DNA from: Amphirosellinia nigrospora
Taxonomy: Eukaryota; Ascomycota; Sordariomycetes; Xylariales; Xylariaceae
Direction: 5' to 3'
DNA: 64,000 bases
Assembly (NCBI GenBank): GCA_004123355.1
Contig: SCHM01000004.1
Span: 5,793,017-5,857,016, forward strand
Shown: positions 53,790 to 56,753 of the stretch, piece by piece
Layout of the letters: each line of letters begins with the position of its first letter
How positions within the stretch are numbered: position 1 is the first letter of the stretch
Position numbers and translations under genes: made by a program
Notes under the pieces: model-generated
Databases searched by the model: none
Seen by the model: the letters and a program-made list of their open reading frames with translations, nothing else
Told to the model about the DNA's origin: nothing

Positions 53790-55860
53790 ATAAAGGAGGT
53801 ACGACTGAGTAAAAAGAAGGTTTTTTTATCGATAAAAAATTTTTTTGTTTTTTATATCCTAAATAGGAAATTCTTTTACCCGAATTAAAAACCTCCCTAT
53901 TTTTACTTATTATTATATATATTCGGTTTTTAGTATTTATTTTTTATATATATATAAATAACTATAATTTAATAAATAATTTAAAGTTAAATATTTATAT
54001 TAAAAGTAATAATATAATATAAATAAATTATAAAGTTTTATTTTTAATTTTTTTTTTGTTATAAGTTATATTAAATTTAATTTTATACTAAATTTAATTA
54101 TTTAATAGTTATACGTTTTATTAAACCCGATTATTTAATAGTTATACGTTATATTAAACGCGATTATTTAATATATTTGTTTAATTATATTATAGTTGTT
54201 TTATTTTTTTGTTTTTTTAATTTAATATTAATTTAAATATTTATTATTTTCGGGTTATAAACTGGTATTATTATCGTAAACTTTGCTTAAATATAATTTT
54301 TATTAAGCTATTTTTAAAAAAATTATAGTTGCTGCAAAATTAGCTGTTATATTAATATAATAAGTATAGTAGTATTTTTTATAAAGTGTTCGTTTATAAT
54401 TTTTTTTGTTTGTTTTTTTGTTTTTTATTATAATATTTAAGCGCGGTTTTTAGGTTTTCGAAGACTTTAGGGCTTTAGATCGATTGTAATAAACGTATTT
54501 TTTAAGTTTTCGAGTTTTTTTTTTTTAAACGTTTTAGCTAGCTTATAAGGTTTTTTTAAACTTATTAATAAGTTTAAGCTTTTTTTGAAAAGTTTTTTTT
54601 TTTAAACGTTTTAATTAATTTATAAAGTTTTTTTTAGATTTATTAGCAAGTTTAAGCTTTTTTCGAAAAAAATAAAAATCTAATACGTTATAAAAATTAA
54701 TATATTTTACGATAACGCTATTATTTAAAATATAAAGTTTATAGTTATATTTATGCTACACTTTAACAGGGGGGTGACCCCCGTAGGGGGTCCCCACTGC
54801 AGAGTGGAGCCTACTCCACTGATAAGTGGAGTCTAGTCCTGTAGATTAGATAAGGAAGCTAGGGACTAGGTAAGTCTCCTGCCTCCGGCAGGAGCCTTAC
54901 CTAGTACCTGCTTCCTTCTTCATCACTTAATATAAACTTAATATTACATTATCCTTAGTAAAGCTTACTAATTTAAAATTAAAAATAGCTTATAGTTATA
55001 TTTAAAATTAAAAATAGCTTATAATTATATTTAAAATTTAAAATAATAATTTATATTTATTAAAAAACTTTTTTAATTTTATTTAAATTAAAAATCGTTT
55101 TAAAAATTTTAATATTATAGTAAGTTTTTTTTACTTAAAGTAAAAATTAATTATTTATTATAATATTTAACTTTTTAATTTTGTTTTATAGCTTAAAATT
55201 ATAGTTTAATTATAAAGCAATAATATAACTTTAGCGTATATTATTATTAATAAAACGGATATATAAAAATATTATATATTAACGTTTATATTTATAAGTA
55301 AATTTATTGCTATTATTAACTAAACGGCTAATATTTTTATAATATAATTATATAGTTATATAAAAAAATAAAATATTATAGTTAATAAATTAAAATAAAA
55401 TAGCAGGTTTTATATATAATTTATTAAAAAAAGCGAACTAGTATAACCGGTAATTATAACTTATTTATTAATTTAAATACGTAGTTTTTAAAAACTTAAG
55501 CATTTTTACCTTTAAATTAAAAGGTTTTTAATATAATATTTTAAATTTTAATAAAAAAGCTAGCTAAACGTCCGATTATAAGTATTTTTTTTTATTAATA
55601 TAACGTTAATAACTATTATTAAGCGGACTATTTATTTAAAGCACCGTTTTTATAATAAATATTACGTATAAATATAATTATTTTATTTTATTACTTTTAT
55701 TTTAAAATAAATAATAAACTATAGTTAATATAATAAAATGCTTAAAATATATTTAATTTAGCTAATAATCTTTTTAAGGTTTTTAAAAGCTTTAGTTTTT
55801 TAATTTTAACTTTAAACTTAGTAAAAACAAAAAAATGTTTAAAATATACATATAGTTACG
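53790..55860. repeat. AT-rich, RIP-like desert
   Basis: About 2 kb is almost free of C and G, dominated by TTTAATTTAA, TATA and TTTTTT tracts, with no open frame. Internal near-duplications survive. One is a unit of about 36 bases (TTATACGTTTTATTAAACCC-type) repeated in tandem at about 54100-54170. Another is a unit of about 95 bases containing AAACGTTTTA and AAGTTTAAGCTTTTTT, repeated at about 54525-54662. A third is AAAATAGCTTATA repeated near 54980-55025. Loss of C/G with residual duplication is the signature of RIP acting on a transposon. Confidence 0.8.
54766..54917. other. Structured GC island inside the AT desert
   Basis: About 150 bases of normal GC content lie inside the AT desert. 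They hold three inverted repeats: GGGGGTGACCCCC with a following GGGGGTCCCC; GGAGCCTACTCC with a nearby AGTGGAGT; and a long one at 54852-54917. The last pairs AAGGAAGC...ACTAGGTAAG..CTCCTGCC with its complement, roughly 28-30 bp with a few mismatches and a tiny loop. No open frame is present. Its sequence has escaped the C-to-T erosion that surrounds it. Confidence 0.65.
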
Positions 55861-55936
55861 GATCTGCAGGCTCTGGTGGCTGTGCCCCACCACTAGCCAC
55901 AGCACCCGTAATCTCTACTTGCAGTAACTGCCACTT

Positions 55937-56008
55937 GCAGTGAATGCGTGACTGCCATTCGCAGTGAATGCAGTTGCAGTGAATGAAGGCAGGCACTGGC
56001 AGTGAATG
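55937..56008 (+). repeat. Short interspersed GCAGTGAATG repeats
   Basis: GCAGTGAATG occurs four times, at 55937, 55961, 55976 and 55999, separated by 5-14 bases, with related ACTGCCA motifs between them. It abuts the AT desert on one side and the LTR element on the other. Confidence 0.7.
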
Positions 56009-56052
56009 CAGCTGCCCCACGCGAGTATTTAAGCAGCTGCCTGTATTGTAGA

Positions 56053-56057
56053 CTTAG
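56053..56057 (+). repeat. Target-site duplication CTTAG, left
   Basis: CTTAG directly precedes the left LTR and is repeated directly after the right LTR at 56587-56591. Confidence 0.85.
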
Positions 56058-56223
56058 TGTGACGGATCAGACCTAGAGTAGCCTGCTAGACCTGCCGGGT
56101 ACGGCCACCTAACCAGTTGGGGCATCCAACCACCAAAAGGGATCAGAATAACCAAGGTGGCAGCCTTGGTTACTAAGCTACTGTATATAGTCCACAGCGC
56201 AGGCCGCAGTCAAGGCTGTAACA
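56058..56223 (+). repeat. Left LTR, 166 bp
   Basis: It starts TGTGACGGATCAG and ends GGCTGTAACA. An internal hairpin AACCAAGG/CCTTGGTT lies at about 56150-56171. Confidence 0.85.
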
Positions 56224-56420
56224 ACCCCCGCGTCACTAAGGCTTCGTCCCGAAGACCTTGAACCCCTGCCGCACGGGGCTCAAGCGAGCGTATCTTGGGA
56301 ACCTTAGAGGGGGCCTGGCTTCTTTCGTACGCCAGTACATACCACTAATCCGGAAAAGCGCAGGTGCCGCTTTTGCCAAGTCCAGGGCTCGAACACTGGA
56401 CCCATAGGTACCTTGGTTAT

Positions 56421-56586
56421 TGTGACGGATCAGACCTAGAGTAGCCTGCTAGACCTGCCGGGTACGGCCACCTAACCAGTTGGGGCATCCAACCACCAAA
56501 AGGGATCAGAATAACCAAGGTGGCAGCCTTGGTTACTAAGCTACTGTATATAGTCCACAGCGCAGGCCGCAGTCAAGGCTGTAACA
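56421..56586 (+). repeat. Right LTR, 166 bp
   Basis: Identical in length and sequence to the left LTR by direct comparison, and followed immediately by CTTAG. Confidence 0.85.
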
Positions 56587-56591
56587 CTTAG
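56587..56591 (+). repeat. Target-site duplication CTTAG, right
   Basis: Matches 56053-56057 exactly, marking a single insertion of the element between them. Confidence 0.85.
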
Positions 56592-56697
56592 ACCTTCCTT
56601 CTTTCCTACTTTATCTGTAGATTTTATATGCAATATACCACATATGCTGGAGCCTTGTCTCTTCGAGTGTGTGAAGCGTAACTCATATTAACTTAAT

Positions 56698-56741
56698 AGC
56701 TCTAGAAATATGTTTTTAGAGCTCTAGAAATATGTTTTTAG
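56698..56741 (+). repeat. 22-bp tandem duplication
   Basis: A unit running from AGCTCTAGAAATATG to TTTTTAG occurs twice in perfect tandem, followed by a partial third AGCT. A related AGCTCTAGAAATA occurs at 53760 on the far side of the desert. Confidence 0.8.
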
Positions 56742-56753
56742 AGCTGAGATCTT

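Follow-up and report, generated by a model that had tools for sequence, protein, structure and literature searches.

We found, in a 64,000-nt stretch of the Amphirosellinia nigrospora genome (contig SCHM01000004.1, positions 5,793,017 to 5,857,016; hereafter the window), a 529-bp miniature retrotransposon that very probably primes its reverse transcription from the 5' end of its own RNA, encoded in its long terminal repeat (LTR), and for which a Gypsy family that we call Y would supply the enzymes in trans. This proposal builds on what can be observed directly in the DNA, namely the anatomy of the element, its target duplications, its empty site, an 11-nt complementarity, LTR ends shared with Y and three fusions in which the element and Y form a single unit.

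The element is a terminal-repeat retrotransposon in miniature (TRIM), that is, a miniature non-autonomous LTR retrotransposon, and its sense strand is the minus strand of the window. Two LTRs of 166 bp, identical at every position, flank an interior of 197 bp, and the whole is framed by a perfect CTTAG duplication, exactly as and where an earlier note on the window had placed it. The features are as follows:

56053-56057, no strand: target site duplication CTTAG, left
56058-56223, minus strand: left-hand LTR, the 3' copy in sense, with no difference from the right-hand one
56224-56230, minus strand: GGGGG, a putative polypurine tract closing the interior at its sense 3' end
56224-56420, minus strand: non-coding interior of 197 nt, conserved in 11 copies with a mean column identity of 90%
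56410-56420, minus strand: putative self-priming primer-binding site (PBS) ATAACCAAGGT, directly after the sense 5' LTR, an exact 11-nt complement to the LTR
56421-56586, minus strand: right-hand LTR, the 5' copy in sense
56511-56521, minus strand: predicted RNA 5' end and primer ACCTTGGTTAT, LTR positions 66-76, in the sense 5' LTR (inferred start site)
56547-56552, minus strand: TATA box TATATA, LTR position 35; the predicted start lies 31 nt downstream
56587-56591, no strand: target site duplication CTTAG, right

Its size (below 1000 bp), LTR length (within about 100-250 bp), absence of protein genes, target duplication, multi-copy state and solo LTRs are all those of a TRIM. The earlier note had also called the element non-coding, in agreement with its longest open reading frames of 47 and 49 aa (frames of at least 40 aa were listed).

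By reading the interior on the minus strand, we found that it begins, at offset 0, with an exact 11-nt complement to LTR positions 66-76, while no other stretch of complementarity to the LTR of 7 nt or more occurs in the interior. Only 19 of 20,000 shuffled LTRs reached an 11-nt complement. The statement of the earlier note that an obvious primer-binding site is lacking must thus be corrected, since the minus strand has a self-complementary site at the right place. The plus-strand reading was rejected: it gives a boundary complement of 4 nt at most and, by eye, no purine tract before the right LTR. Of the 10 copies that retain the PBS, 9 have it in exact form, and 9 likewise keep an exact matching site in the sense 5' LTR; the exception is L018, which was hit by repeat-induced point mutation (RIP). 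In L017 neither the PBS end nor the sense 5' LTR is present. The sense interior closes with 5 or 6 consecutive G, a short putative polypurine tract in front of the 3' LTR. A PBS directly after the 5' LTR and complementary to an LTR segment is the arrangement of Tf1-type elements.

Based on this layout, we propose that TRIM RNA would start at ACCTTGGTTAT, a position to which the 31-nt spacing from the TATA box, and nothing else, points as the RNA 5' end. This end would fold back onto the 11-nt complementary site just after the 5' LTR; RNase H would then cut off the folded 5' end, which would prime minus-strand synthesis as in Tf1, and the G-tract would prime the plus strand. As to a polymerase III promoter, by eye there are a B-box-like GTTCGAGCC and a weak A-box-like stretch, with TTTT runs after them.

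Two lines of evidence point to Y as the enzyme source. First, Y and the TRIM share their LTR ends. Y measures about 7 kb; its LTR is 256-265 bp in the ten single copies (of 12 fetched) that bear exact 5-bp duplications, and the 24-nt start of its LTR has 35 matches in the genome at up to 2 mismatches (reversed control, 0). The sense LTR of the TRIM runs from TGTCACAGC(C) to GTCACA, with TGTTACAGCC as the start of the window copy, and the matching Y LTR runs from TGTCACAGCC to ATCACA where it is free of RIP. Second, three of the 11 copies with an interior (L015, L017 and L018) are joined head to head with a Y element, the TRIM lying directly against the Y start; the joints are at C5:4600623, C4:9204498 and C4:4986486. 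The 5-mers beyond the TRIM and beyond the far Y end are ATTTT/ATTTT in L017 and ATTAG/ATTAG in L018, even though in the latter an element of a further Gypsy family, X, sits inside Y and the far Y end lies about 15 kb off. Sequential insertion was rejected, because the duplications would then be expected at the inner joint, and the matching 5-mers are at the outer ends. The outer duplications thus indicate that each TRIM-Y pair integrated as one molecule and that the cDNAs of both elements were in one place when this happened, which points to the machinery of Y. The three fusions are probably separate events, as the fused TRIMs differ in LTR length and sequence. The X protein matches the interior of a Y copy (C5:4605002-4606063) at 29% identity with 27 stops, so that Y is a Gypsy relative and the matched copy is dead. 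Together, the shared ends and the fusions suggest that Y would provide Gag, reverse transcriptase (RT)/RNase H and integrase in trans, and that TRIM RNA may be packaged with them. They also favor, as an interpretation, the view of the earlier note that the element is mobilized in trans. That note had further asked for an autonomous partner sharing the LTR: LTR similarity yields none, and a candidate emerges in Y through shared ends and physical fusions.

A number of observations weigh against this proposal. The matched pol stretch of Y carries the stops mentioned above and no intact Y was found, so its decay makes present mobility doubtful. The primer site of Y is visible only in RIPped form, as ATATTTTATTT in nearly all listed copies and ATATTTTACTT in one, and the best of these pairs at 10 of 11 positions with AAGTAGAATAT of unRIPped LTRs. 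The start of the window LTR is one base off that of Y, the outer 5-mers of L015 (TTAAC/TTAAT) show one C/T mismatch, and a fourth TRIM-Y joint, L024, in which a Y LTR is followed by the last 15 or so nt of a TRIM interior and then by a TRIM LTR, has no matching duplication. On the side of the primer, the sense 3' LTR of L012 lacks an exact primer site, and the LTR has a palindrome TAACCAAGG...CCTTGGTTA around that site whose upstream arm the PBS also resembles, so that the 11-nt complementarity could derive from a repeated motif. Finally, transcription and priming of the TRIM are both deduced from sequence.

The palindrome leads to a first alternative, in which a tRNA fragment serves as primer and the complementarity is a by-product, as might be imagined from the fungal Helenus TRIMs, which use anticodon-loop fragments according to the available text of PMC10886601. 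We consider this improbable. The complement begins exactly at the LTR boundary, it has the 11 nt seen in Tf1, and the primer segment lies 31 nt after TATATA. Moreover, X repeats the layout with a different sequence: at the same place as in the TRIM, it has a 10-nt complement to its own LTR at offset 0, and it carries GAGGGGGGT where the TRIM has its putative polypurine tract. 

By eye, in an inspection confined to the LTR boundary, TGG, the complement of the tRNA 3' CCA, is absent in both orientations. No tRNA, 5S or ribozyme (including the hammerhead that defines retrozymes) was matched by Rfam at E values up to 5 in 55850-56750, and ARAGORN found no tRNA in the window. The only two Rfam matches in that region are miRNA families at 56696-56745, below the gathering score and outside the TRIM. 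They come from a 22-bp repeat forming an overlapping palindrome at 56693-56745, just outside the X LTR that hosts the TRIM, and are weak and spurious.

The decay of Y raises a second alternative, namely that X or another Gypsy family serves the self-priming TRIM. X encodes RT, RNase H, integrase and a chromodomain, has the same self-priming layout and exists as little-mutated copies with open frames. Its LTRs, starting with AGTTACGG and ending with CGTAACT, are nonetheless unlike those of the TRIM, and the fusions involve Y and never X; the TRIMs found in X (window, L011 and L012) are ordinary insertions, each with its own duplication. We judge this alternative unlikely. One little-mutated X (C4, about 4988190-4995040, covering L033, L056, L055 and L057), with long open frames and LTRs 99.7% identical, sits inside the RIPped Y element that takes part in the L018 fusion. 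Five equal-scoring integrase-core matches (C1:5498175, C1:12639965, C4:2328541, C4:7649363 and C4:7657611), in open frames of 369-1075 aa, apparently belong to a recent Gypsy family of a different type.

In a third alternative, TRIM and Y inserted separately and were fused only later, through recombination or deletion, so that the fusions would say nothing about shared enzymes. Y is abundant, one TRIM (L016) is an ordinary insertion within a Y element, and L024 joins Y and TRIM with no matching duplication. Yet the outer 5-mers match in all three head-to-head joints, if the single C/T difference is allowed, and those of L015 and L018 are end to end with nothing lost, which makes such an origin very unlikely in our opinion. 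Inside a Y LTR at L024 (699-913) we also noticed a short LTR-like insertion, TGTCACG...CGTGACA, with a CTTTC duplication, possibly a further solo LTR or miniature family.

The window TRIM lies in a solo LTR of X:

55854-56683, plus strand: solo LTR of chromodomain Gypsy family X, host site of the TRIM, with CATAT duplications at 55849-55853 and 56684-56688

Removing the TRIM and one CTTAG leaves 296 bp of X LTR, and every one of these positions aligns gap-free, at 97.0% identity, with another X LTR, located on C4. This second LTR represents the empty site, which the earlier note had proposed to look for in other strains. Since excision restores a gapless X LTR, the TRIM is not an assembly tandem, an artefact that the earlier note had named as a danger. 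That note had also placed the element next to an eroded desert. The low GC content beside it is real (22% and 18% at 54-56 kb), but the TRIM itself sits in the little-mutated solo LTR at the edge, outside the desert proper.

By searching the genome (48.1 Mb in 11 contigs, the window being on C6) with the whole element, the LTR and the interior, we found at least 20 TRIM loci, that is the window and 19 others, and the copy counts are lower bounds. The search with the LTR had been proposed in the earlier note, and its outcome bears out a multi-copy family. Eleven loci have an interior (window and L009-L018), seven are solo LTRs and two are an LTR with an interior scrap (L024 and L027). All 30 LTR and 12 interior matches fall within these 20 loci, so that no autonomous element sharing the TRIM LTR or interior was found by searches that could overlook RIPped relatives. 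Exact 5-bp duplications were detected by script in six of the 11 interior copies (window, L009, L010, L012, L013 and L014); by eye, L011 has GGGGG, for which the script gave no result, and L016 has CCTTA/CTTTA with one mismatch (CCTAA instead of CTTTA in the script). Among the nine loci without a full interior, six have exact duplications, L020 has one mismatch, and L024 and L027 have none. The right-hand LTR of L016 is split, after about position 1464 of the locus, by a further short LTR-like insertion, TGTCAGATTC...AATCCAACA.

Some copies are irregular in a way that resembles unfinished reverse-transcription products, as we infer for two of them. In L017 the sense 5' LTR is reduced to about 4 nt. 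L011, between its GGGGG duplications, is made of an LTR with 11-13 nt of PBS, fused to a truncated TRIM in inverted orientation. Also, the nearest relative by LTR differs from the nearest relative by interior in L009, L012, L016 and L017, which would fit template switching among packaged RNAs.

LTR divergence was scored in eight pairs, L011, L016 and L017 being excluded as rearranged or incomplete. Within pairs, we counted no difference in the window, one each in L009, L010 and L012 (a transversion in the last), and 11, 7, 12 and 44 in L013, L014, L015 and L018, respectively. The 74 differences in the last four, diverged pairs are transitions without exception, and 40 lie at CpA, which indicates that RIP-type mutation reaches the TRIM family. 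The idea of the earlier note that such an element evades RIP thus holds for the window and three other pairs and fails for the four diverged ones, and plain escape from RIP was rejected as a general rule. Eight of nine measured copies have a GC content of 48-55% (33% in L018), in flanks of 5-35%. The same comparison bears on whether the element could be a DNA transposon resembling a miniature inverted-repeat element, duplicated around a spacer, and no retroelement at all. The LTR termini are indeed imperfect inverted repeats of each other, and 5-bp duplications flank single copies too. However, the interior is common to 11 loci and, in unRIPped copies, LTR identity within an element is far above the mean between elements (a distance of 17%), so we regard this as extremely unlikely. 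As for the age, the element was called young in the earlier note, in line with its zero differences in 166 bp; at substitution rates of 1e-9 to 1e-8 per site and year, these are compatible with ages of up to roughly 9 (slow rate) or 0.9 My (fast rate), which constrains the age weakly.

The interior is likely a structured RNA. In an alignment of the 11 copies, a structure of 58 pairs holds in 98.3% of cells; doubly changed pairs number 10, compared to 3.3 in shuffles. Without the RIPped L018, 99.3% of cells are kept and doubly changed pairs drop to 4 compared to 1.5, a weaker covariation signal because RIP can mimic compensation. The fold of the single sequence is unremarkable (z -1.72), and a role of the interior in packaging or priming is a guess. 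We find moderately probable a wider reading, in which the TRIM would have no need of tRNA priming, since its primer is in cis and any self-priming Gypsy RT could copy the element. The genome would then keep fossil intermediates of reverse transcription: U3-to-U3 cDNA fusions with the helper Y, a copy without a 5' LTR, and, joined to another copy, an LTR with PBS only (plus-strand strong-stop DNA). The conserved interior would serve as an RNA scaffold for packaging and priming.

Both TRIMs in fungi and self-priming in autonomous elements are already known. Santana et al. (2013) reportedly studied TRIMs in fungi. As far as the available parts of the papers cited here go, TRIMs of plants and animals, such as the bivalve biv-TRIM (PMC6934838), are likewise below 1 kb, with LTRs of 100-250 bp, a non-coding interior, a primer site at its start and a purine tract at its end, and are mobilized in trans. 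In contrast to these, the PBS described here pairs with the element's own LTR. In Tf1, Tf2 and Tj1 of fission yeasts (PMC7175516, PMC4600332), the PBS after the 5' LTR also pairs with an LTR segment taken as the RNA 5' end, over 11 nt in Tf1 as in the present TRIM. These elements encode their own proteins whereas the TRIM encodes none, so that it works like a Tf1-type element and is not one. Helenus, Ajax and Cassandra (TRIMp3; PMC10886601) resemble it as fungal TRIMs with 5-bp duplications and solo LTRs but are defined by a tRNA or 5S sequence in the LTR, of which none was found here; fungal Helenus is reported from Pucciniales and three Agaricomycetes and is tied to Copia (PMC10886601). Miniature LTR elements of filamentous ascomycetes are described in Cochliobolus (PMC4112212), where two TRIMs are related to Gypsy, and Venturia (PMC4646964). 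The terms "primer binding" and "self-prim" do not occur in the available text of PMC4112212, and no fused partner appears in that of either account. Among the literature matches listed, none is a self-priming TRIM, with most subscription journals outside the search, and a search for retroelement co-packaging fusions gave nothing helpful.

By what route TRIMs that lack a tRNA primer site are copied is an open question in print, the missing site being raised without being settled in the available text of the bivalve study (PMC6934838), and the present family offers a concrete and testable answer. When a TRIM and its helper are fused within a single target duplication, the fusion gives physical evidence of the enzyme source, for which there is usually sequence similarity only. 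With its 529 nt, the element is a small natural model of the cis requirements for self-primed reverse transcription.
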